A model generated the notes under the pieces. The model was not told where the DNA came from. It saw only the letters and a program-made list of their open reading frames with translations, and ran no database searches. Source: Microbacterium sp. zg-B96 (GTDB lineage: Bacteria; Actinomycetota; Actinomycetes; Actinomycetales; Microbacteriaceae). Taken from it: 64,000 nucleotides of DNA. The stretch covers positions 248,001-312,000 of the forward strand of contig NZ_CP126738.1 of assembly GCF_030246865.1 (NCBI RefSeq), read 5' to 3'. Below, in pieces: positions 1 through 11,433 of this stretch (positions are counted from its first letter, which is position 1; every line of letters starts with the position of its first letter). The position numbers and the translations under genes are program-made.

Positions 1-130
1 GGTTGGGGTTCAGGGAGAAGTCGCGGTCGGCATAACCGAAGACCCGCTCGTACAGCACCGCCGCCGCGCGGTAGGCCGCAGCGTCGCCCAAGCGTTCCGC
101 GCGGAGGGGCATGGCGGGCGCGTGGGGCAC
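1..130 (-). CDS. N-terminal fragment of a probable GNAT acetyltransferase, cut by the window edge
   Basis: An open frame runs leftward from a GTG at 130 (alternative ATG at 112) to the left edge. It includes the stretch VLYERVFGYADRDFSLNP. That layout resembles the start of predicted GNAT acetyltransferases of the COG3375 type as I remember them, but only about 40 residues are visible and no acetyl-CoA motif is inside the window. No clear ribosome binding site precedes either start. It is divergent from the peptidase gene at 244, so the 131-243 gap should hold both promoters. The family call is tentative; that the frame is coding rests on its protein-like composition. Confidence 0.4.
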   Translation of the reverse strand, partial: MPHAPAMPLRAERLGDAAAYRAAAVLYERVFGYADRDFSLNPN

Positions 131-243: not shown

Positions 244-1380
244 ATGAGCGACGCCATCTCCGAACAGGCGACCGTCCTGGAGCGGCTGGAGCAGCTGGTG
301 CGCCTCGAGTCGCCGTCGCGGGACATCGCCGCGAGCGAGGCGATCGCCGACCTGTTGCGCCAGTGGTGGGAGGCTCTCGGCGCCCGCGTGCGGCTCGTGC
401 GCACGGATGCCGGGCTCACCCTGGTCGCCGATCTCGACGGCGCGGGCGCCCCGATTCTGCTGGTCGGCCACTCCGACACGGTGTGGCCCCGCGGCACCCT
501 GCAGGCCGACCTGCCGTGGGCGGTCGACGGCGACATCGTGCGGGGTCCGGGTGCATACGACATGAAGAGCGGCCTGGTCGTGATGCTCGCGGCGGTGCAG
601 CGCCTCGCCGGCCGGGCGCACCGCGCGGTGCGGGTCGTGGTGGTGTGCGACGAGGAGATCGGCTCTCCCACCACGCAGGCGCTGGTGCGCGAGGCCGCGC
701 AGGGCGCCGCCGCCGCGATCGGGTTCGAATCCCCCCACCCGGACGGCGCCCTGAAGGTGGGGCGGCGCGGCAGCACGCGGCTGCGGCTGTCGGTGCGCGG
801 GCGCGCCGCACACGCCGCCCTCGACCCGGCCGCCGGCGTGTCGGCGATCGACGAGCTGGTCGATCAGCTGCTCGCGGTACGCCGGATCGCGTCGGACCCG
901 CAGCTGCCCAGCGAGGTGTTGTGCAACGTCGGCGTCATCCGCGGCGGCACCGCGGCGAACGTGGTGTCGGCCGAGGCGGATGCCGAGATCGGACTGCGCT
1001 TCATCGATCCGGTCACAGAGGAGAAGGTGCTGGCGCAGCTGGGTCGGCTCGCACCGGTCCGCGCCGGTGCGTCGGTGGAGTGCGCCCTGCTCAGCCACCG
1101 CCCCGCCTGGCTGGCATCCGACGCCGACGCCTCGCTGCTGGCTGCCATCGCGGGCGCCGGCGCGACGCGGGGCCAGCAGGTCGACGGCCGGTCGGCGGCC
1201 GGCGCGGGCGACACGAACCAGGTGGCGGGCTTCGGCATCCCCACCGTCGACGGGTTCGGTCCGCGTGGCGGCGGCGCGCACGCGCTCTCGGAACACCTGT
1301 CACTGACATCGCTGTCCGAACGCATCGCCCTGCTGGAGGCGGTGCTGCTGGCTGGAGTGAGTGCGACCGATCATCCGTAA
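244..1380 (+). CDS. M20 family metallopeptidase (CPG2/glutamate carboxypeptidase-like)
   Basis: 378 residues, a full-length M20 enzyme that would remove a C-terminal or N-acyl amino acid with two metal ions. Visible ligands and catalytic positions are H76 and D78 (GHSDT), D106 (GAYDMKSG), E137-E138 (CDEEIG) and E162. The lid/dimerisation domain follows (RGRAAHAALDP, residues about 187-197), and a late His sits in GGGAHALSEH. No signal peptide is seen, so it is probably cytoplasmic. The ATG follows GAGGGAGT a few bases upstream. It precedes the peptide transporter on the same strand but is separated by a 293-base gap with its own promoter. It probably hydrolyses an imported acyl-amino acid or peptide. 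The exact substrate cannot be read. Confidence 0.85.
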   Translation: MSDAISEQATVLERLEQLVRLESPSRDIAASEAIADLLRQWWEALGARVRLVRTDAGLTLVADLDGAGAPILLVGHSDTVWPRGTLQADLPWAVDGDIVRGPGAYDMKSGLVVMLAAVQRLAGRAHRAVRVVVVCDEEIGSPTTQALVREAAQGAAAAIGFESPHPDGALKVGRRGSTRLRLSVRGRAAHAALDPAAGVSAIDELVDQLLAVRRIASDPQLPSEVLCNVGVIRGGTAANVVSAEADAEIGLRFIDPVTEEKVLAQLGRLAPVRAGASVECALLSHRPAWLASDADASLLAAIAGAGATRGQQVDGRSAAGAGDTNQVAGFGIPTVDGFGPRGGGAHALSEHLSLTSLSERIALLEAVLLAGVSATDHP

Positions 1381-1586
1381 CGGATCATCTGATCGCGCCG
1401 GACGGCCTGAGAACGAACCGGGACTGAGCGGTGTGCGGCCCGAATTTATGCCTGGTTGCGCAGATTGACCGAAACGGAAGATTTCTTCTCGCGTCGTGGT
1501 CATTTCGTGTGTTGTTCCACGAGTGCGGCGCAATGTAACAGTCGTGTGAAATCGTGGCCGGATCCCCACGATCGGTCACAAATACG

Positions 1587-1616
1587 TTGACCGCATCGTC
1601 GACGATGAGGTTCTAT
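1587..1616 (+). promoter_or_regulatory. Candidate promoter with palindromic operator for the first peptide-transport operon
   Basis: TTGACC at 1587-1592 and TTCTAT at 1611-1616 are 18 nt apart, a plausible housekeeping promoter 58 bases before the binding-protein ATG. A perfect 14-base palindrome, CATCGTC/GACGATG (1594-1607), lies between the two boxes, where a repressor would block RNA polymerase. The rest of the 1381-1673 gap shows nothing else convincing. Regulator unknown. Confidence 0.5.
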
Positions 1617-1673
1617 GTAGTCCATCGCCGGCCCGGCCTGCCGCGGCCAAGGTTCTCCCTGAAAGGAACCCCC

Positions 1674-3527
1674 ATGCCCAATCGTCCTCGGACCCGTGCC
1701 CGCCGGGCGCTGGCAGTGGTCGCGGCAGCCGCGCTGATCGCACTGCCGGTCGGCGCCGCACACGCATCGGATACGGCCCCTGCCGCCCGTGCCGTGGCCG
1801 CCGAAGCCACGTCGACGCCTGACGCCGACGCCACGACCTTCCGCATCGCCACTTCCGGTTTCGTCGACACGTTCAACCCGTTCGTGTCCATCTACCTGAC
1901 GCCGACGAACATCCTGCGCTACGTCTACGAGTACCTCGTGCAGAACGACGCCGAGGACGGCTCGCCGACGAAGGGTCTTGCCGACAGCTGGGAGGTCGAA
2001 GACGGCGGCATGACCTGGGTCTACACGCTGCAGGACGACCTGACCTGGTCGGACGACGAGCCCATCACCTCGGCAGACGTCGTCTACACCTACGAGCAGA
2101 TGATGTCCGTGCCCGAACTGAGCGTGGCCAACGGCAACCTGGTGTCGAACTTCGAAAGCGTCGAGGCACCCGACGACAAGACCGTCGTCATCAACCTGAA
2201 GACCCCGCAGGCACCCAACCCGGGCACCGAGGTGCCGATCGTCCCCCAGCACATCTGGGAGGAGATCGACGACCCGGCGACCTTCGCCAACGACGCCGAC
2301 GTCGTCGGCTCGGGGCCCTACCTGCTCGACAGCTACAGTGCGAACCAGTCGATCACGCTGCGCGCCAACCCGAACTTCTGGCAGGGGGCTCCCGCGGTCG
2401 ACCGCATCCAGTACGTCTACTACACCAACTCCGACGCGCAGGTGCAGGCGCTGCGCTCGGGCGAGGTGGACTTCGTCTCCGGACTCACCCCGACCCAGTT
2501 CGACGCGCTGGAGGATGTGGAGGGCATCACGACGCACTCCGGTGTGGGGCGTCGCTACCACTCCATCAGCATCAACCACGGCACCGTCACCCGTGACGGG
2601 CAGGCATACGGCACCGGCAACGAAGCACTCAAGGATGTCAACGTGCGCCAGGCGCTGCGCCTGGGAACCGACACCGAGACCCTGCTCGAGCGAGTGATGG
2701 AGGGTCGTGGCGAGCTGGCCACCAGCTTCATCCCCTCGTCGTTCCCGAAGTGGGCCCTTCCCGCCGACGACGACGTGATCATGTCGTACGACCCCGAAGC
2801 GGCCATGGCCAAGCTCGAGGAAGCCGGCTGGACCGTGGGCGCGGGCGGCATCCGCGAGAAGGACGGCACCCCGCTGCAGCTGCGCCTGCTGGTGGATGCC
2901 GACGACCTCACCGAGCAGTCGATCGCCGAGTACTTCGTGCCGTGGATGGCCGAGATCGGTGTCGGCATCACGGTGGAATCCACCGACGGCGACACCATCA
3001 GCGCCCGTTCGGTCGCGGCTGACTACGACCTGTACTTCAGCGGGTGGAGCGTCAACCCCGACCCCGACTACCAGCTGGGCATCAACCTGTGCTCGACGCT
3101 GCCCACCGGCACCGACGGCTCCGGCGGCACCAGCCAGGACGGCTACTGCAACGAGGAGTTCGACGAGCTGTACGCTCAGCAGCGCTCCGAACTGGAGGAG
3201 GAGAAGCGCCAGGAGATCGTCCACGAGATGCTGGCGATGAACTACACCGACACCGCGCAGATCGCCACGTGGTACGCCAACTCGCTGGAGGCCTACCGCT
3301 CCGACCGGTTCTCCGGCTTCACGCTGCAGCCCGCCGAGGGTGGCATCATCGCCAGCCAGGCCGGCTACTGGGGCTTCCTCACCGTTGAGCCGGTCGAGGG
3401 CGCCGTCAGCGACGAGGGCGGTGTGCCCACCGGCCTCATCGTCACCGGAGTGGTCGTCGTGCTGATCGTCCTCGGCGTGCTGATCTTCGTCCTGCTGCGA
3501 CGTCGCAAGATGGCCGACGTCGAATGA
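1674..3527 (+). CDS. Peptide ABC transporter substrate-binding protein with C-terminal membrane anchor
   Basis: 617 residues of the SBP_bac_5 (DppA/OppA-like) family. The start at 1674 is chosen over an in-frame upstream ATG at 1554 because GAAAGGA lies 8 bases before it and the product then begins with a classic Sec signal ending near AHA (residue 31). There is no lipobox Cys. Instead residues about 587-608 form a single hydrophobic helix followed by RRRK, so the protein is anchored by its C-terminus. The tail resembles a sortase signal but no LPXTG motif is present. It is followed by a strong hairpin and then the permeases. It should capture an extracytoplasmic peptide for the transporter encoded at 3610-7218. 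Confidence 0.88.
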   Translation: MPNRPRTRARRALAVVAAAALIALPVGAAHASDTAPAARAVAAEATSTPDADATTFRIATSGFVDTFNPFVSIYLTPTNILRYVYEYLVQNDAEDGSPTKGLADSWEVEDGGMTWVYTLQDDLTWSDDEPITSADVVYTYEQMMSVPELSVANGNLVSNFESVEAPDDKTVVINLKTPQAPNPGTEVPIVPQHIWEEIDDPATFANDADVVGSGPYLLDSYSANQSITLRANPNFWQGAPAVDRIQYVYYTNSDAQVQALRSGEVDFVSGLTPTQFDALEDVEGITTHSGVGRRYHSISINHGTVTRDGQAYGTGNEALKDVNVRQALRLGTDTETLLERVMEGRGELATSFIPSSFPKWALPADDDVIMSYDPEAAMAKLEEAGWTVGAGGIREKDGTPLQLRLLVDADDLTEQSIAEYFVPWMAEIGVGITVESTDGDTISARSVAADYDLYFSGWSVNPDPDYQLGINLCSTLPTGTDGSGGTSQDGYCNEEFDELYAQQRSELEEEKRQEIVHEMLAMNYTDTAQIATWYANSLEAYRSDRFSGFTLQPAEGGIIASQAGYWGFLTVEPVEGAVSDEGGVPTGLIVTGVVVVLIVLGVLIFVLLRRRKMADVE

Positions 3528-3533
3528 GTGACG

Positions 3534-3572
3534 GGGGCGCCGCCGCGGGGTCCACTCCCGCGGCGGCGCCCC
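3534..3572 (+). terminator. Strong hairpin between binding protein and first permease gene
   Basis: A perfect 16-bp GC-rich stem, GGGGCGCCGCCGCGGG (3534-3549) pairing with 3557-3572, has a 7-nt loop and is followed only by TTCT. It sits 6 bases after the binding-protein stop and 38 bases before the permease ATG. It looks like a leaky terminator or RNA-stabilising hairpin that would let the binding protein be made in excess over the membrane components. Confidence 0.7.
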
Positions 3573-3609
3573 TTCTCACATCCCCGAAGCTCACTGAGGA
3601 AAGAACCGC

Positions 3610-4653
3610 ATGACCAACACGGTGCCGCCCACCGAGGAGATCCTCCTCGCCGAGTCGGGTTCGGATGGTGCCCCGCGTCGCGTCTCGGCGCTGTCCTACT
3701 TCCTCACCAAGCTCGGCGGCGCCGCGGTGAGCATGGTGATGGTGATCCTGCTCGGGTTCTTCGCCTTCAAGGTGCTCCCCGGCGACCCCGTCGCCAGCAT
3801 CGCCCGCGAGCGGCAGCTCAGCCCCGAGCAGATCGCACAGCTGCGCACCCAGATGGGGCTCGACAAGCCGCTGTGGCAGCAGTTCGTCGACTATCTGGTG
3901 AACGTGTTCACACTCAACTTCGGCGAGAGCTACGTCTACAAGATGCCGGTGGGCGAGCTCATCGGCGAGTACTTCTGGAACACGATCCTGCTCACCGGCA
4001 CCTCCGCCGTCATCGCCATCACCCTCGGCCTCTGGCTCGGGCAGAAGGCCGGCTGGAAGCCGGGCTCGCTGTTCGACCGGATCACCTCGGGCATGGCGCT
4101 GGTGCTGTGGTCGGTGCCGACGTTCTGGCTCGCGCTGATCCTGCTCATGATCTTCGGTGGCACGCTGGGGTGGTTCCCCACCGGCGGCATGACCTCCCCC
4201 GATCCGCCCGCCGACCTGTTCGCTCGGATGCTCGACGTCGCGGCGCACATGGTGCTGCCGGTGATCACGATGGTGGCGGTCGTCTACGCGCAGTACGTGA
4301 TGGTCATGCGCGCCTCGCTCATGGAGGAGAAGAGCGCCGACTACCTCACCACCGCCCGCGCCAAGGGCCTGCGCGACGACCTGGTGCGCCGCCGCCACGC
4401 CGTGCCCAACGCGCTGCTGCCCGCCGTCACGCTGATGTTCCTGCACATCGGCGGTCTCATCGCCGGTGCCGTCACGGTGGAGACGGTGTTCTCCTGGCCG
4501 GGGCTCGGAAAGCTCACGTTCGAGGCCATCAGCGGTCCCGACCTGCCGCTGCTGCAGGGCACCTTCGTCGTCTTCTCGGCGGTCATCATCGCCACCAACC
4601 TGATCGCCGACTTCATCTATCGACGGCTCGACCCGAGAGTGAGGCGCGGATGA
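3610..4653 (+). CDS. Peptide ABC transporter permease (DppB-like)
   Basis: 347 residues, BPD_transp_1 family. It has an N-terminal membrane helix (about residues 31-50), the usual GDP motif after it (LPGDP), a periplasmic segment, then five more helices. The EAA-type loop that contacts the ATPase appears as ARAKGLRDD followed by RRRHAVPNALLP (about residues 246-270). AGGAAAG lies 7 bases before the ATG. The stop overlaps the next start by 4 bases (ATGA), so the two permeases are translationally coupled. It forms the heterodimeric channel with the 4650 product. Confidence 0.9.
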   Translation: MTNTVPPTEEILLAESGSDGAPRRVSALSYFLTKLGGAAVSMVMVILLGFFAFKVLPGDPVASIARERQLSPEQIAQLRTQMGLDKPLWQQFVDYLVNVFTLNFGESYVYKMPVGELIGEYFWNTILLTGTSAVIAITLGLWLGQKAGWKPGSLFDRITSGMALVLWSVPTFWLALILLMIFGGTLGWFPTGGMTSPDPPADLFARMLDVAAHMVLPVITMVAVVYAQYVMVMRASLMEEKSADYLTTARAKGLRDDLVRRRHAVPNALLPAVTLMFLHIGGLIAGAVTVETVFSWPGLGKLTFEAISGPDLPLLQGTFVVFSAVIIATNLIADFIYRRLDPRVRRG

Positions 4654-5561
4654 GCGCGGTCACCGCATCCCGTTCGCCGCGCAGCATGGCGTGGGCGCGG
4701 CGGCGCGCCGCCTTCGGGCAGTTCGCCCGGGAGTTCTCCCACAGTCGGTCCGGCATGGTCGGGCTGATCTTCCTGGTCGTCATCGTCACGCTCGCCGTGT
4801 TCGCACCGGTGCTCGCGCCGGCGTGGATGCTCGATGTGACCCGGGTGATGGATTCGCCGCGGTTCGCGCCGCCCTCCTGGGAGCATCCGCTGGGCACCGA
4901 CCATCAGGGCCGGGAACTGTGGGTGCGGATGCTGTGGGGCGCGCAGGTGTCGCTGCTGGTCGGGTTCGCAGCCACCGCGATGTCGATGATCATCGGCACG
5001 ATCGTGGGCATCGCGGCGGGCCACTTCACCGGGTTCGCCGGAGCCGTGCTCATGCGCATCATCGACTTCTTCCTCGTGCTGCCCTCGCTCATCCTCGCCA
5101 TCGTGCTGTCCACCGTGCTCTCGCGCGGAGTGTGGACGATCGTCATCGCCATCGGCCTGACGTCATGGGCCGGTACGGCCCGGGTGGTGCGCGCGCAGAC
5201 GCTCTCGGTGGAATCCCGTGACTACGTCGAGCGTTCCCGGGTGCTCGGGGCGGGCCACTGGCACATCATCGTCAAGCACCTGCTGCCGGCCGTGCTTCCC
5301 CTGGTGCTGGCCAACACCACCCTCACCGTCGGCTCGGCGATCATCTCCGAATCCACGCTGGCGTTCCTGGGGCTGGGCGACACCACACTGCAGTCGTGGG
5401 GTGCCGTGCTGCGGAACTCGATGGACGTCTCCGCCGCCACCAGCGGCTACTGGTGGTACGTGCTCATCCCGGGCCTGGCGATCGTGCTGGTCGTGCTCGC
5501 CTTCACCCTCGTCGGCCGCGCCGTCGAGACGATCGTCAACCCGACGCTGCGGAGCCGCTGA
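4650..5561 (+). CDS. Peptide ABC transporter permease (DppC-like)
   Basis: 303 residues. The N-terminal cytoplasmic stretch, the first helix (about residues 34-54) and the DppC-type GTDHQGRELW motif after it are visible. Four to five more helices and a coupling loop follow (ERSRVLGAGHWHIIVKHLLP). The start is the ATG overlapping the preceding stop; a longer open frame upstream in this phase is only the shadow of the first permease. Partner of the preceding permease in the channel. The next gene begins 2 bases after its stop. Confidence 0.9.
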   Translation: MSAVTASRSPRSMAWARRRAAFGQFAREFSHSRSGMVGLIFLVVIVTLAVFAPVLAPAWMLDVTRVMDSPRFAPPSWEHPLGTDHQGRELWVRMLWGAQVSLLVGFAATAMSMIIGTIVGIAAGHFTGFAGAVLMRIIDFFLVLPSLILAIVLSTVLSRGVWTIVIAIGLTSWAGTARVVRAQTLSVESRDYVERSRVLGAGHWHIIVKHLLPAVLPLVLANTTLTVGSAIISESTLAFLGLGDTTLQSWGAVLRNSMDVSAATSGYWWYVLIPGLAIVLVVLAFTLVGRAVETIVNPTLRSR

Positions 5562-5562
5562 C

Positions 5563-7218
5563 ATGCCCGACCTCACGTTCGAAGATGTCTCGATCACCTA
5601 CACCACGGCGGGCCGCGGATCCCGGGGCGAGATCGCCGCGGTGCGGGGCGTGACACTGCGCCTTCCCGCCGGGGGCACTCTGGGCATCGCGGGGGAGTCG
5701 GGCTCGGGGAAGTCCACGCTCGCGATGAGCGTGCTGCGGCTGCTGCCGGGCAACGCGACCCTCACCGGCCGCGTGCTCGTCGGTGACACCGACGTGACCG
5801 AGCTGAGTTTCGGCGGGCTGCGGGCGCTGCGCTGGGCGGATGCCTCGATCGTCTTCCAGGGCGCGATGCACTCGCTCAACCCGGTGCGCACCGTCGGCCA
5901 GCAGATCCTCGAGGCCCTCGAGTTGCACGTCGCCGACTCCTGGAAGACCGAGGCGGCGCGCAAAGAACGGGTGGCGGAGCTGCTGCGCGCCGTGGACCTT
6001 CCCCCGCTGAAGGCACAGTCCTACCCGCACGAGCTGTCGGGCGGGCAGAAGCAGCGCATCATGATCGCGATGGCACTGGCGTGCGAACCGCAGATCATCA
6101 TCGCCGATGAGCCGACCACGGCGCTGGACGTGATCGTGCAGCAGCAGATCCTGGAGATGATCAGCCGGCTCGTCACCGAACGCGGCATCTCGCTGCTGAT
6201 GATCAGCCACGACCTGTCGGTGCTCGCCTCGGCGTGCGAGCGCATCGCGATCATGCGCAACGGCGAACTGGTGGAGGTGGGCGACGCCCACGAGGTGTGC
6301 ACGCAGGGCGAGCATCCCTATACGCGTCAGCTCGCCGACGCGTTCCCCACGATCGGCGACCCGGCCTCGCGCCGCAACCCGGTGACGCGGCGGGAGCGCA
6401 CGGGCGCGGCATCCGATGTCCGGCCCAGCGCCATGACCGACGAAGTACTGCTGGAGGCCAAGGGACTGAGCGTCACCTTCCACAGCCGGTCGCGGTCCGC
6501 CCGCGCCGTGAAGGGCGTGGACCTGGTGGTGCGGCGCGGCGAGATCCTGGCGCTCGTGGGCCAATCCGGATCGGGCAAGACCACCCTCGCCCGCACTCTC
6601 GTGGGGCTGCAGCAGCCCGATCCCGGGTCGGTGGTGCGCTTCCGCGGCCGGGACCTGCCCCGCAAGGGCAAGGGGCTGCACGCGTTCCGCAAGGAGGTGC
6701 AGATGGTGCTGCAGGACCCCACTGCGGCGCTGAACCCCAAGCTCAGCGTGTACGAATCGGTCGCGGAGGGGCTGCGGGTGCAGCACTTCCGGGGGGATGA
6801 GAAGCAGCGAGTGGCGCAGAGCCTGGTGGATGCCGAGCTGACGCCGCCGGAGGACTTCTTCACCGCGATCCCGCAGGAGCTCTCCGGTGGCCAGCGGCAG
6901 CGCACGGTGATCGCCGGTGCGCTGGCGGTCGGGCCGCAGCTGCTGGTGGCCGATGAGCCCGTCGCTTCGCTGGACGCGTCGGCGCGCGGTGAGATCCTGG
7001 GGCTGCTGATGTCGCTGCGGGACCGGCTGGGCCTCAGCGCCCTCGTGATCACCCACGACCTGGGGCTGGCGTGGAACATCGCCGACACCGTCGCGGTGAT
7101 GCTCGAGGGCGAGATCGTCGAGTACGGCCCCACCGAGCAGGTGCTGCTGCGCCCGCAGCACGTGTACACCCGGCAGCTGCTGTCGGCCGCTCCCACCATC
7201 CACCGGGCGATCGCGTGA
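5563..7218 (+). CDS. Double ATPase of the peptide ABC transporter (DppD-DppF fusion)
   Basis: 551 residues carrying two complete ABC ATPase domains. Domain 1 has Walker A GESGSGKST (44-52), signature LSGGQKQR (about 158) and Walker B IIIADEPT (about 179). Domain 2 has Walker A GQSGSGKTT (about 332), LSGGQRQR (about 438) and Walker B LLVADEP (about 459). Both keep the H-loop HDL. One chain therefore supplies both ATP sites that DppD and DppF normally share. GGAG lies 8 bases before the ATG. The stop overlaps the next gene. The C-terminal oligopeptide-transporter extension follows domain 1 (HPYTRQL). Confidence 0.92.
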   Translation: MPDLTFEDVSITYTTAGRGSRGEIAAVRGVTLRLPAGGTLGIAGESGSGKSTLAMSVLRLLPGNATLTGRVLVGDTDVTELSFGGLRALRWADASIVFQGAMHSLNPVRTVGQQILEALELHVADSWKTEAARKERVAELLRAVDLPPLKAQSYPHELSGGQKQRIMIAMALACEPQIIIADEPTTALDVIVQQQILEMISRLVTERGISLLMISHDLSVLASACERIAIMRNGELVEVGDAHEVCTQGEHPYTRQLADAFPTIGDPASRRNPVTRRERTGAASDVRPSAMTDEVLLEAKGLSVTFHSRSRSARAVKGVDLVVRRGEILALVGQSGSGKTTLARTLVGLQQPDPGSVVRFRGRDLPRKGKGLHAFRKEVQMVLQDPTAALNPKLSVYESVAEGLRVQHFRGDEKQRVAQSLVDAELTPPEDFFTAIPQELSGGQRQRTVIAGALAVGPQLLVADEPVASLDASARGEILGLLMSLRDRLGLSALVITHDLGLAWNIADTVAVMLEGEIVEYGPTEQVLLRPQHVYTRQLLSAAPTIHRAIA

Positions 7219-8189
7219 GCGTGACCGCCGTCACGGCGGGTCGCGCCTCCTACCTCGCATCGGCGCCGCTGCAGCCGGGCGACCGGGTGCGGTTCGTCTC
7301 GCCCTCGGGGCCCGGGAACGCCGAGAGCCTGGAACGCGCGGTGGGCTACTACCGCGACTGGGGACTGGACGTCGTCGTCGGCGACCACGTGCTCGACCCG
7401 CACCCGCGGGCGTCGTACCTCGCCGGTTCCGACGACGTCCGCCGGCAGGATCTCGTCGACGCGTGGTGCGACCCCGACACCGACGCGGTCGTGTGCCTGC
7501 GCGGCGGCTACGGCGCGATGCGGCTGCTGGACGGCATCGACTGGTCGCGCATGCGCGCCTCGGCGCTGCGCCGTGACGGGCGGCCGAAGCTGCTCACCGG
7601 CTCGTCGGATGTCACGGCGCTGCACGAGGCGTTCCGTGTGCACCTGGACGTGCCGACGCTGTTCTGCCCGATGCCCGGCAACGATGTCTTCCGCGATGCG
7701 ACGTCGGTGCGAGGCGACGTGCACCGGTGGCTGTTCGAGCCGTGGGCGGGGCGCAGCATCGTCGGCCCCCGCACCGAGGTGCTCGTGCCGGGTGCGGCTG
7801 AGGGCAGGTTCACCGGCGGGAACCTGTCGCTGCTCGCGATGGCGCTCGGCGCCGCCGAGGCCGAGGCGCGCCCCGGTGGCATCCTGTTCCTCGAAGACAT
7901 CGATGAAGAGGCCTACCGGCTGGATTCCTACCTGCTGCAGCTGCAGCGGGCGGGTCGGCTGGCCGATGCGGCGGGGATCGTGCTCGGGTCGTGGCACAAG
8001 TGCGCCGAGCCGGGAGCCGTGCGCGCGCTGATGCAGGAGTACCTGGGCGACCTCGGGGTGCCGGTGCTGTGGGAGCAGGGATTCGGCCACGACCCGGAGG
8101 CGTTGAGCGTGCCGCTGAACGTGGACGGCGTGCTCGACGCAGTTCAGGCGGGTGGCGGCATCCGCCTGGCCGTGGCGGAGGCGGTCTGA
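7215..8189 (+). CDS. LD-carboxypeptidase, S66 family (LdcA/MccF-like)
   Basis: 324 residues. S66 enzymes are cytoplasmic serine peptidases. Known members cleave the L,D bond of muropeptide stem peptides or, in MccF, inactivate the imported antibiotic microcin C. The nucleophile is S131 in GSSDVTAL. The catalytic Glu lies in LFLEDIDEEAYRLD (about residue 227) and the His is H292 in GFGHDPE. The fold start is seen as GDRVRFVSPSGP. No signal peptide. I use the GTG at 7215 that overlaps the transporter stop (GTGA); a second GTG at 7221 is possible. Placement after a peptide importer favours acting on the imported compound. Confidence 0.88.
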   Translation: MSVTAVTAGRASYLASAPLQPGDRVRFVSPSGPGNAESLERAVGYYRDWGLDVVVGDHVLDPHPRASYLAGSDDVRRQDLVDAWCDPDTDAVVCLRGGYGAMRLLDGIDWSRMRASALRRDGRPKLLTGSSDVTALHEAFRVHLDVPTLFCPMPGNDVFRDATSVRGDVHRWLFEPWAGRSIVGPRTEVLVPGAAEGRFTGGNLSLLAMALGAAEAEARPGGILFLEDIDEEAYRLDSYLLQLQRAGRLADAAGIVLGSWHKCAEPGAVRALMQEYLGDLGVPVLWEQGFGHDPEALSVPLNVDGVLDAVQAGGGIRLAVAEAV

Positions 8190-9025
8190 TGCCGATCGTG
8201 CTGCCGGCGCTGGACCCCCGCGCCACCTGGTCGGTGCGCGTCGTCGCCGACGACGGCACGGTGCTCGCCGAGCACGCGCCCGATGTCGTCTGCGAGACGG
8301 CGAGCGTCGGCAAGGTGTTCCTGCTGATCGAGGTGGCCCGCCGGCTGGAGACGGGGGAGCTCAGCGCGGACCAGCGCATCGAGATCCCCGCCGAGCACGT
8401 CGTCGCCGACTCCGGGCTGCTCTACCGCATGCGTGACCGGCAGCTGAGCGTGTACGACGCGGCGCTGCTGGTGGGCGCGGTCAGCGACAACCTCGCGACC
8501 AATGCGCTGCTGGCGATGTGCGGGCTGGCGGCGGTGCGTGCCGTGGCCCCCGCGCTCGGGTACGAGAACACGTCACTGCTGGATTTCATCCGGAACGAAC
8601 GCACCCCCGACCTGCCGTGGACGCCGTCGTACGGCACCGCGGCGGAGCTGGCCGACCTCATGCGGCGCCTGGCGGCCGGCGAGGTCATCTCGCCCGCGGT
8701 CAGCGCTCAGGTGTCGACCTGGCTCGCGGCCGACACCGACACCTCGATGGTCGCCGACGCACTGCTGCTGGATCCCCTCGCCCACGCTGAGGCGGAGTAC
8801 CAGGGGATGATCCTGCGCCACAAGACCGGATCCACGTCGTTCGCACGCATCGACGTGGGTCACCTCGCCGGTCCCGCGGCGGGCGTCGCGTACGCGGTCG
8901 CGGCGAACTGGAAGGGCGCGGCGAAGGACCTGCGCGCCCCCGTGCTGGATGCGATGCGGGCGATCGGCGAAGAACTGCGCGGCCACGTGACCGGCCGGGC
9001 TCGCGACGAGGAGGAGGCGGAATGA
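8189..9025 (+). CDS. Class A beta-lactamase-fold serine hydrolase, no signal peptide (copy 1)
   Basis: 278 residues. The three hallmark motifs of the penicillin-recognising hydrolases are present: S39-V-G-K42, S99-D-N101 and K212-T-G214. The E166-type loop is not obvious. The protein starts straight into the first beta strand, with no signal peptide or lipobox, so it should be cytoplasmic. Secreted beta-lactamases need export, which argues against a simple resistance enzyme. The start codon overlaps the previous stop (TGATG). It is a paralogue of the next gene. It may hydrolyse an imported lactam, cyclic peptide or acyl derivative. Confidence 0.82.
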   Translation: MPIVLPALDPRATWSVRVVADDGTVLAEHAPDVVCETASVGKVFLLIEVARRLETGELSADQRIEIPAEHVVADSGLLYRMRDRQLSVYDAALLVGAVSDNLATNALLAMCGLAAVRAVAPALGYENTSLLDFIRNERTPDLPWTPSYGTAAELADLMRRLAAGEVISPAVSAQVSTWLAADTDTSMVADALLLDPLAHAEAEYQGMILRHKTGSTSFARIDVGHLAGPAAGVAYAVAANWKGAAKDLRAPVLDAMRAIGEELRGHVTGRARDEEEAE

Positions 9026-9840
9026 ACATCGACTTCGCAGAAGTGGAGCACCAGGTGCCGGGGCTGCGTTTCTCGGCGCTCGCCGTCGACCTCGACGACG
9101 ACACCGTGGTGTTCGCCCATCAGCCCGACCTGGTGCTGAGCACCGCGAGCATCGGCAAGATCTTCCTGCTGCACCGGCTGCTGACCGAGGTCGATCGGGG
9201 CGAGCGCTCCCTCGAGGACACCGTGACGCGGCGCCCCGTGGAGTACATCGAGGACTCCGGGCTGTGGTACCTGCTGCAGGCCGACACCCTGTCGCTCTAC
9301 GACGTCGCGGCCCTGATCGGTGCGGTCAGCGACAACGCCGCGACCAATACCCTCTGCCGGGTGATCGGGCTGCCCGTCGTTCAGGAGCACACCCGCGAGC
9401 TCGGCTACCGGGACTCCGGCCTCGACGACATCGTGCGGTGGCCGCGTCCGGCGGGCGCTCCGCCGCGGCTGTCGCACGCCACCGCAACGGAACTCGTGCG
9501 GTTCGTGCGGCGCACCGTGCTCGCCGAGGACCTGACGCCCGCGTCGGCGGGCACGCTGCAGCGCTGGCTCGGGGCGGGCATGGATCTGTCGATGGTGGCA
9601 TCCGGGTTCCACCTCGACCCGCTCGCCCACTACGACTATGACCGCGACGTCTGGCTGTGGAACAAGACCGGCACCAACTCGTCGGTGCGCGCCGACATCG
9701 GCCTGGTGATGTCGCCGACGCGGCGCATCGCGTACGCGGTGGTGGCCAACTGGACGCGCGGCGCCGACGAGCGCGAACCGGCGATGGATGCCATGCGGCG
9801 GGCCGGCGATGTGATGCGCAGCCGGCTGGCCGAGGGCTGA
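9022..9840 (+). CDS. Class A beta-lactamase-fold serine hydrolase, no signal peptide (copy 2)
   Basis: 272 residues, paralogous to the preceding gene along its whole length. Its motifs are S43-I-G-K46, S103-D-N105 and K215-T-G217. Like its neighbour it has no signal peptide. The ATG overlaps the upstream stop by 4 bases, making this the last gene of the peptide operon. The two copies have diverged clearly, so they may act on different substrates or form a heteromer. That is inference; the sequence shows only the shared fold and intact catalytic motifs. Confidence 0.82.
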   Translation: MNIDFAEVEHQVPGLRFSALAVDLDDDTVVFAHQPDLVLSTASIGKIFLLHRLLTEVDRGERSLEDTVTRRPVEYIEDSGLWYLLQADTLSLYDVAALIGAVSDNAATNTLCRVIGLPVVQEHTRELGYRDSGLDDIVRWPRPAGAPPRLSHATATELVRFVRRTVLAEDLTPASAGTLQRWLGAGMDLSMVASGFHLDPLAHYDYDRDVWLWNKTGTNSSVRADIGLVMSPTRRIAYAVVANWTRGADEREPAMDAMRRAGDVMRSRLAEG

Positions 9841-9906: not shown

Positions 9907-11433
9907 GTGACTGAGCAGCACCCGTCGACGCCCCCCGAGCCGTCTTCCGAAGAGGACGTTTTCGAGCAGAAGGCCGTGCGGCTGGCCAAGCGCGAACGCC
10001 TGATCGCCGAGCGAACGGATGCCGGTGGCGGCGCCTACCCGGTGTCGGTGCCGGTCACCGACACGATCCCGGAGCTGCGCGAGCGGTTCGCGGACCTCGA
10101 GGCGGGCGACGAGACCGGCGTGACCGCCGGTGTCGCCGGGCGCGTGGTGTTCAGCCGCAACACCGGGAAGCTCTGCTTCGCGTCGCTGCAGGCCGGCGAC
10201 GGCAGCCGCATTCAGGCGATGGTGTCCCTCGCCGAGGTGGGCGAGCAGTCGTTGCAGGACTGGAAGGACCTCGTCGACCTCGGTGACCACGTCTTCGTCA
10301 GCGGTCAGGTCATCTCCAGCCGCCGCGGCGAGCTGTCGATCATGGTGCGCGAGTGGACGATCGCCGCCAAGGCGCTGCTGCCGCTGCCCAACCTCTACAC
10401 CGAGCTGAGCGAGGAGAGCCGCGTTCGCTCGCGCTACCTCGACCTCATCGCGCGCGACCAGGCGCGAGACGCGGTGCTGGCGCGCGCGAAGGTCAACGCG
10501 AGCCTGCGCCGCACGTTCACCGACCACGGGTTCATCGAGGTGGAGACCCCCATGCTGCAGGTGCAGCACGGCGGGGCCGCCGCTCGCCCGTTCGTCACGC
10601 ACTCGAACGCGTTCGACACCGACCTGTACCTGCGCATCGCGCCGGAGCTGTTCCTCAAGCGGGCCGTCGTGGGCGGCATCGACCGGGTGTTCGAGATCAA
10701 CCGCAACTTCCGCAACGAGGGCGCCGACTCCACCCACAGTCCCGAGTTCGCCATGCTCGAGGCCTACCAGGCCTACAGCGACTACAACGGCATCGCCGAC
10801 CTGACGCAGGAGCTCGTGCAGAACGCCGCGATCGCCGTCACCGGCGGCACGACCGTGACCTGGGCCGACGGCACCGAGTACGACCTCGGCGGCCAGTGGG
10901 ATCGCATCTCGATGTACGAGTCGCTGTCGGCGGCATCCGGACGCACGATCACCCCGCAAACCCCGCTGGACGAGCTCACGGCGTTCGCCGCCGAGGTGGG
11001 CGTGGAGGTGCCGGCGAAGATTGCGACGCCCGGCAAGTTCGTCGAGGAGCTGTGGGAGCACTTCGTCAAGCGTGACCTCACCCGCCCCACGTTCGTCATG
11101 GACTTTCCGCTGGACACCAGCCCGCTGGTGCGCGAGCACCGGTCGATTCCCGGTGTCGTGGAGAAGTGGGACCTGTACATCCGCGGCTTCGAGCTGGCCA
11201 CCGGATACTCCGAGCTGGTGGATCCCGTCATCCAGCGGGAGCGTTTCGTGGAGCAGACGAAGCTCGCCGCCCGCGGCGACGACGAGGCGATGCGCGTGGA
11301 CGAGGAGTTCCTGCGCGCGCTCGAGCACGCCATGCCCCCCACCGGCGGCATGGGCATGGGCATCGACCGGCTCATGATGGCCATCACGGGGCTCGGCATC
11401 CGCGAGACGATCCTCTTCCCGCTGGTCAAGTAA
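9907..11433 (+). CDS. lysS: Lysine--tRNA ligase, class II
   Basis: 508 residues, the normal length for bacterial class II LysRS. It charges tRNA-Lys with lysine in the cytoplasm. The N-terminal OB-fold that binds the anticodon covers about residues 70-180. The catalytic domain has motif 2 around NRNFRNEGADSTHSPEF and motif 3 at the C-terminus (GMGMGIDRLMM, then GIRETILFPLVK). The GTG start is supported by AAGGAG six bases upstream. It is a stand-alone gene with its own promoter; the next gene is convergent 36 bases away. Core housekeeping gene. Confidence 0.97.
   Translation: MTEQHPSTPPEPSSEEDVFEQKAVRLAKRERLIAERTDAGGGAYPVSVPVTDTIPELRERFADLEAGDETGVTAGVAGRVVFSRNTGKLCFASLQAGDGSRIQAMVSLAEVGEQSLQDWKDLVDLGDHVFVSGQVISSRRGELSIMVREWTIAAKALLPLPNLYTELSEESRVRSRYLDLIARDQARDAVLARAKVNASLRRTFTDHGFIEVETPMLQVQHGGAAARPFVTHSNAFDTDLYLRIAPELFLKRAVVGGIDRVFEINRNFRNEGADSTHSPEFAMLEAYQAYSDYNGIADLTQELVQNAAIAVTGGTTVTWADGTEYDLGGQWDRISMYESLSAASGRTITPQTPLDELTAFAAEVGVEVPAKIATPGKFVEELWEHFVKRDLTRPTFVMDFPLDTSPLVREHRSIPGVVEKWDLYIRGFELATGYSELVDPVIQRERFVEQTKLAARGDDEAMRVDEEFLRALEHAMPPTGGMGMGIDRLMMAITGLGIRETILFPLVK

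Follow-up and report, generated by a model that had tools for sequence, protein, structure and literature searches.

In Bacillus, YkfA belongs to the S66 family and YkfC to the NlpC/P60 family. The ykfABCD locus joins the LD-carboxypeptidase YkfA to part of a peptide ATP-binding cassette (ABC) transporter, in the cytoplasmic breakdown of stem peptides (excerpt of PMC3305447). We analysed a locus that is alike in these respects, found at the left edge of a 64,000-nt stretch of the soil-type bacterium Microbacterium sp. zg-B96 (NZ_CP126738.1, 248,001-312,000), here called the window; positions are those of the window, and negative values lie to the left of its edge. Our computations gave a conserved unit, its gene families, the folds of two proteins (BLA1, of the class A beta-lactamase fold, and a GNAT protein), the catalytic motifs, and no sign that the hydrolases are exported. 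We consider it likely that the two arms of the locus form one catabolic unit for peptides with D-amino acids, which are most likely those of peptidoglycan stems or cross-bridges, from other bacteria or from the cell itself.

Compared with Bacillus ykf, the locus has an N-succinylamino acid racemase (NSAR)-type enzyme, a GNAT-fold protein, M20 and M19 hydrolases, a class IV aminotransferase and two class-A-fold proteins instead. No YkfB-like L-Ala-D/L-Glu epimerase and no NlpC/P60 protein was seen among the eight proteins of the window and the six of the left arm (by Pfam, with a PDB comparison for the racemase). In 2012, a peptidase for the L-Ala-D-Glu bond was given as not yet described, and YkfB as able to epimerise L-Ala-D-Glu (same excerpt of PMC3305447). 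As the locus showed no epimerase-like gene, M19 and the NSAR-type enzyme would be an alternative to the YkfB route.

A second likeness is to the N-succinylamino acid racemase pathway of Geobacillus kaustophilus, reportedly described by Sakai et al. in 2006, in which NSAR is said to have GNAT and M20 partners. With such partners, the two would be alike in encoding a GNAT-fold protein, an NSAR-type racemase and an M20 hydrolase together; they differ in that the genes are joined here to a peptide importer and D-peptide-type hydrolases, a possible source of D-amino acids. To our knowledge, the natural D-amino-acid source for N-succinylamino acid racemase chemistry is not settled. An NSAR/L-succinylase pair is mentioned in an excerpt of PMC7431475.

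The Agrobacterium YejBEF-YepA system resembles the locus in its ABC-type import of wall fragments; its authors raise the possibility that imported peptides are broken down, and a putative D-Ala dehydrogenase is encoded in a cluster with yejABEF (excerpt of PMC9790009). It differs in having another transporter and, within that excerpt, no LD-carboxypeptidase orthologues, whereas here the importer genes are accompanied by a set for peptide degradation. In a literature search by title and start of the abstract, the gene set was not found described among the matches listed, most subscription papers being outside the search. Each family is known; their assembly looks new, as a variant of peptidoglycan-peptide catabolic operons.

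Organisation of the two arms

A first-pass annotation of the window had described a one-strand set at 244-9840 holding an M20 peptidase, a peptide ABC importer, an S66 LD-carboxypeptidase and two class-A-fold paralogues. Open reading frames and Pfam agree with this, and all eight right-arm proteins, from M20 to BLA2, were assigned by Pfam above cut-off. The arm lies on the plus strand and comprises the M20 metallohydrolase (244-1380; best solved relative, carboxypeptidase G2), a family 5 peptide-binding protein (substrate-binding protein, SBP; 1674-3527; Pfam and hydropathy), permease B of the OppB/DppB type (3610-4653), permease C of the OppC/DppC type (4650-5561), a fused OppD-OppF-type double ATPase (5563-7218), the S66 LD-carboxypeptidase with a GTG start (7215-8189; Pfam and alignment to LdcA, 1zrs), BLA1 (8189-9025), a class A beta-lactamase-fold serine hydrolase that is apparently unexported and that we propose as a DD-peptidase, and BLA2 (9022-9840), its paralogue (42% identical) and a proposed D-peptidase. 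The stop/start overlaps claimed from the permeases to the last gene were found at four of the five junctions, by 1-4 nt (4 nt for permease B/permease C, ATPase/S66 and BLA1/BLA2; 1 nt for S66/BLA1); at the fifth, 1 nt separates the permease C stop (5561) from the ATPase start (5563).

The gap between M20 and SBP is 293 nt. That between SBP and permease B (82 nt; 3528-3609, plus strand) holds a strong hairpin (-51.4 kcal/mol), a possible attenuator that may help to give SBP transcript in surplus. At its N-terminus the SBP carries a hydrophobic stretch, and at its C-terminus a segment resembling a membrane anchor in place of a lipid anchor; no lipobox cysteine was seen by eye, and the C-terminal segment was present in 48 of the 51 SBPs of this and related loci (hydropathy scan).

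Half of the locus lies beyond the window edge, out of sight of the first-pass annotation. The left arm is divergent from M20 and lies mostly outside the window, and we read it from G000:C1:236001-249500 (locus L130), G000 being the zg-B96 genome itself. All on the minus strand, it consists of the GNAT-fold gene (-679 to 112, i.e. G000:C1:247321-248112, with its 5' end at window positions 1-112; assigned by the fold of an orthologue) and, by Pfam, a SIS protein (-1387 to -686), the NSAR-type MR_MLE enzyme (-2508 to -1390), the class IV aminotransferase (-3402 to -2524; PF01063), a fusion of M19 dipeptidase and GATase class I domain (-5263 to -3407) and a serine hydrolase of PF00144 (-6822 to -5260).

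The divergent intergenic region (113-243, no strand) carries two conserved blocks. Among 27 aligned regions, ATACGnnTCC was found near GNAT in 25 and GATAYG..CrTA near M20 in 23, with both in 22; these are probably promoters, and would fit a divergent pair. After BLA2, a gene that looks by eye like lysS begins at 9907.

Conservation in Microbacterium and related loci

We searched a sample of 149 Microbacterium genomes with BLA1, GNAT, NSAR, S66, M19-GATase and SBP, counting close orthologues down to identity floors of 70% (BLA1), 52% (GNAT), 68% (NSAR), 64% (S66), 66% (M19) and 64% (SBP). Each of the six was present in 19 genomes, and the 19 were identical. All 19 had the order M19-NSAR-GNAT / SBP-S66-BLA1 on one contig, with the left arm opposite (span 12.5-15.4 kb). 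Under random gene presence, two identical sets of 19 in 149 would arise with odds of 2e-24, which is only a guide, since the genomes share ancestry. Subject to this relatedness, conservation of the arrangement clearly exceeds what chance would give. The first-pass annotation had proposed a test of co-occurrence; S66, BLA1 and SBP occurred in the same 19 genomes, and BLA2 followed less strictly, in 15 of them (E up to 1e-55; none in G264, G278, G302 and G324).

Weaker matches were left out: BLA1 in G215 and G290 (49-51%), M19 in G262, G283, G274 and G259 (45-56%), GNAT below 49%, and NSAR paralogues at 42-49%. The distant S66 (48%) and SBP (43%) of G312 were also left out; they lie together at G312:C1:2011185-2017546 with no close BLA1 orthologue, perhaps as a second unit type. 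In G291 and G324, S66 is broken into two reading frames; in G322, the match to BLA1 is limited to residues 3-170. M19 and GATase formed a single match in 11 of the 19 locus genomes and two adjacent matches in the other 8. Thirteen of the 19 had an aminotransferase copy in the locus, in every case with NSAR on one side and M19 on the other; an aminotransferase match was present in 137 of the 149 genomes, copies outside the locus being 43-52% identical. A second, more distant pair of NSAR-type and GNAT genes was seen elsewhere in several genomes (G314:C1:3024330-3026648, G332:C3:511030-514607 and others), so the two genes are also linked outside this locus.

In a sample of 199 genomes over 85 genera of the family, 143 had BLA1 homologues. 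Operon-type BLA1 and BLA2 pairs with importer genes were found in 7 of the 199 (in one, G065, the contig stops inside the ATPase gene), two genomes with several homologues, G056 and G077, being left uninspected.

A pattern scan with seven BLA1 orthologues gave 78 loci, in which partner genes were called by tblastn with the reference proteins (at least 60 bits, any identity). Both permeases and the ATPase were found in 54, S66 in 51, M19 in 18, a C45-family gene in 14, and both BLA1 and BLA2 in 37. Left-arm matches (GNAT 28, SIS 32, NSAR-type 20, one of these only 27% identical) are not full counts, because many loci end at 10 kb. S66 was present in 34 of the 37 pair loci, and the remaining three (L082, L085 and L091) carried an M19 match; in 14 of the 37, the C45 gene lies between BLA1 and BLA2 (PF03417 by Pfam in L033 and L034, by similarity elsewhere).

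Relatives with partly exchanged peptidases (S66, M19, C45 and S58) were found in other actinobacteria. The Aeromicrobium and Nocardioides loci have importer, S66, SIS and M19 genes divergent from the BLA homologue, with M20 adjoining in L094. The ten Bifidobacterium loci with a BLA homologue had a distant importer (6), GATase (6), a PF00144-type gene (5) or M19 (4); Pfam gave S58 in L123 and PF00144 in L096. A C39-like peptidase gene stands divergent between M20 and SBP in L053, L055-L059, L062, L068, L070, L074 and L079. A secreted role for this protein was rejected, an N-terminal hydrophobic stretch being absent in 11 of the 12 proteins scanned.

Lone BLA homologues were also observed. In other Microbacteriaceae (L039-L051), at least 7 of 13 loci had an M13-like gene with an RPQDD start directly upstream (called by Pfam in L047 only), and we therefore take the lone copies as a different unit; the L047 lone-locus protein had no obvious signal peptide. 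In L101, the homologue follows a pyridoxal-phosphate decarboxylase-family gene (Pfam) and an amino-acid-permease-like gene (by eye); there and in other Mycolicibacterium loci it stands behind a PucR-like regulator (by eye), which we also take as a different unit. The zg-B96 genome itself has a third, lone homologue (G000:C1:3247827-3248588; about 9300-10090 of L038), preceded by the tail of a gene that by eye encodes an M13-like peptidase. It is likely an inactive paralogue, since the SxxK and SDN residues are lost (reading GLGI and TGDA) while KTG is kept.

Hydrolases and enzymes of D-amino-acid handling

The S66 protein matched PF02016 (101.7 bits) and PF17676 (88.9 bits). Its Ser, Glu and His, presumably the catalytic triad, align in position with those of LdcA (1zrs), in line with the intact residues claimed for it; against the NCBIfam muramoyltetrapeptide carboxypeptidase model it scored 120.1 bits, below the cut-off of 378. 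The motifs reported for the two paralogues were also found, as S39xxK42, S99DN and K212TG in BLA1 and S43xxK46, S103DN and K215TG in BLA2, and they are invariant across 39 aligned proteins. The fold of BLA1 is PBP-A-like, the DD-peptidase PBP-A being among the nearest structures (19% identity in the structural alignment; families missing from the fold-match lists were not treated as excluded). Compared with PBP-A of Thermosynechococcus (excerpt of PMC11189452), BLA1 and BLA2 show no export signal and lie in an operon with an importer.

Both proteins fell below the NCBIfam class A beta-lactamase cut-off of 200 (53.1 bits for BLA1, 42.6 for BLA2), and an equivalent of the deacylating Glu166 is not conserved in the BLA family. 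This comparison used a profile alignment rather than a residue-level superposition, and two registers are possible. In the profile alignment, an invariant Arg135 of BLA1 stands opposite Glu166 of a TEM variant; with the register shifted by two, Glu137 falls at position 166, but this residue is A, H, G or D in several BLA1 relatives. In BLA2 the candidate positions in the alignment registers are Arg139 and Pro141, neither a glutamate, and Trp140-Pro141 is invariant in seven aligned BLA2 sequences.

The absence of signal peptides noted in the first pass held in our hydropathy scan, made on proteins passing a coverage filter and not with a signal-peptide predictor: an N-terminal hydrophobic stretch was seen in 0 of 67 BLA1-type, 0 of 40 BLA2-type and 0 of 50 S66 proteins, counted over this locus and its relatives. 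BLA1 and BLA2 thus apparently stay unexported.

The best PDB matches of the NSAR-type enzyme were N-acylamino acid racemases (290 bits), followed by N-succinylamino acid racemase/o-succinylbenzoate synthase (OSBS; about 270 bits), and the KxK motif and the second Lys aligned with 2ggi. A dipeptide epimerase reading of this MR_MLE gene was rejected (at most 91 bits, against 290 for the N-acylamino acid racemases). The GNAT orthologue in L052 (M. pullorum), with a predicted model of pLDDT 85.5, matched GNAT structures (best E 4.7e-7), and a QxRGxG-like motif was present in the GNAT alignment. Carboxypeptidase G2, the nearest PDB entry to M20, frees L-Glu from an N-acyl group. An M20 enzyme of this type would suit N-succinyl-L-Glu desuccinylation, and we propose it as an N-succinyl-L-amino acid desuccinylase or acyl-Glu hydrolase, going by its sequence relatives.

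M19 matched PF01244 (361.8 bits) and, as nearest PDB entry, 3id7 (356.8 bits), which we take to be a Streptomyces enzyme that cuts L-D dipeptides; its GATase domain matched Peptidase_C26 just above cut-off (24.0 against 20.5 bits). The aminotransferase was nearest to the D-amino-acid transaminase CpuTA1 (237 bits). According to excerpts, CpuTA1 shows activity on D-Ala and none on L-Ala (PMC5131300), and it served as search model for Rv0812, a bifunctional aminodeoxychorismate lyase and D-amino acid aminotransferase (PMC8105722).

Proposed pathway and rival explanations

Import and intracellular dismantling of an unusual peptide had been suggested for the set, and our results support this; all substrates, the order of the steps and the peptidoglycan source are what we infer. 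The SBP/OppBC/fused-ATPase importer would bring peptides into the cytoplasm, where BLA1 and BLA2, acting like DD-peptidases, would trim D-Ala-D-Ala or cross-links. S66 would cut the L,D bond and remove D-Ala4, the GATase domain might cut the gamma-glutamyl bond or the isoglutamine amide (the weakest step), and M19 would cut dipeptides with a C-terminal D-residue, possibly L-Ala-D-Glu; C45 may add to peptide breakdown in some species. D-Ala and D-Glu could be rescued by two routes, one in which GNAT would N-succinylate them, the NSAR-type racemase invert them and M20 desuccinylate the L-form, the other by transamination with the class IV enzyme. M20, which does precede the set as first described, would then probably belong to the D-to-L conversion route and not be merely a preceding peptidase. 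A complete cytoplasmic D-peptide pathway without an L-Ala-D/L-Glu epimerase, with unexported class-A-fold DD-peptidases, S66, M19 acting on L-Ala-D-Glu, and N-succinyl inversion, is a tentative proposal that falls a little short of being probable.

Several observations weigh against catabolism of D-amino-acid peptides by this locus. NCBIfam TIGR01928 names the NSAR-type enzyme o-succinylbenzoate synthase (279.3 bits, cut-off 200.65); this menaquinone-OSBS reading is weakened, since a separate menC is found above cut-off elsewhere in the same genome. The class IV enzyme also passes the NCBIfam aminodeoxychorismate-lyase cut-off, and folate-synthesis-like genes (folP, folB and folK by eye; -11927 to -10292, L130 73-1708) lie some 7 kb to the left of its gene; a housekeeping lyase reading is weakened, because a second aminotransferase match was found elsewhere in all 13 genomes with a locus copy, zg-B96 included. 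The GNAT protein scored below the Pfam cut-off (20.6 against 27) and had no match in a PDB sequence search, its fold coming only from the predicted fold of the orthologue. Carboxypeptidase G2, nearest to M20, is not a proven desuccinylase. The 19 locus genomes share ancestry, so their co-occurrence counts are not independent; S66 was found in five of the seven operon-type pair genomes and not in G100 or G062 (in G062, an M19 gene stands behind the ATPase gene), and 12 of the 78 loci, 10 of them from Mycobacteriaceae, have a BLA homologue without any listed partner. Pfam showed neither a MurNAc-L-Ala amidase nor an amino-sugar enzyme in the 14 locus proteins scanned; the pathway would therefore depend on free peptides.

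That the locus recycles the cell's own wall peptides as housekeeping, and does not use outside D-peptides, we regard as rather doubtful. The SIS protein may hint at sugar-phosphate sensing, but one would expect a housekeeping function to be more widespread than the 19 of 149 genomes in the genus and the 7 of 199 with pairs in the family, and such patchy occurrence suggests scavenging instead.

Among the substrates first suggested, catabolism of D-peptides or peptidoglycan peptides is favoured and beta-lactam degradation is not, because Glu166 is not conserved, the class A cut-off is missed and the neighbouring genes belong to families acting on D-residue peptides or D-amino acids. In our view it is improbable that the locus detoxifies or exploits an antibiotic (a D-amino-acid peptide or a beta-lactam) that is imported and then destroyed by the hydrolases. 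Such a role would account for the class A fold with SxxK, SDN and KTG and for the C45 gene between BLA1 and BLA2, C45 being the family of acyl-CoA:6-aminopenicillanic acid acyltransferase, and in one register Glu137 of BLA1 could occupy position 166. However, protection needs no import of an antibiotic that acts on the wall, and the racemase-, transaminase- and dipeptidase-type genes suit nutrition better.

An ordinary peptide-uptake operon, in which peptidases of unrelated substrates are merely co-located, would fit with all the families being known and with the other context of the Mycobacteriaceae homologues; it is more improbable still, since six genes occur in the same 19 genomes in the same order and the functional theme recurs with different genes in other genera. 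Least probable of all is the use of poly-gamma-glutamate or a D-Glu-rich polymer, with GATase cutting gamma bonds, NSAR and the transaminase taking D-Glu, and M20 as an acyl-Glu hydrolase, which draws on the Peptidase_C26 match and the relation of M20 to carboxypeptidase G2 but leaves S66 and two DD-peptidase-like proteins unexplained.

LD-carboxypeptidase genes are reported to be rare among gut actinobacteria (excerpt of PMC11382707). If catabolism of D-amino-acid peptides is the role of the locus, it would give actinobacteria a self-contained means of feeding on bacterial wall peptides and further D-peptides, and it would place N-succinylamino acid racemase chemistry in a peptide-degrading pathway with a natural source of D-amino acids. 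The beta-lactamase fold would have a nutritional role, and a family of class-A-fold peptidases, apparently not exported and lacking a conserved Glu166, would help in asking how beta-lactamases evolved from peptidases. It would also be a warning against labelling genes like BLA1 and BLA2 as resistance genes.

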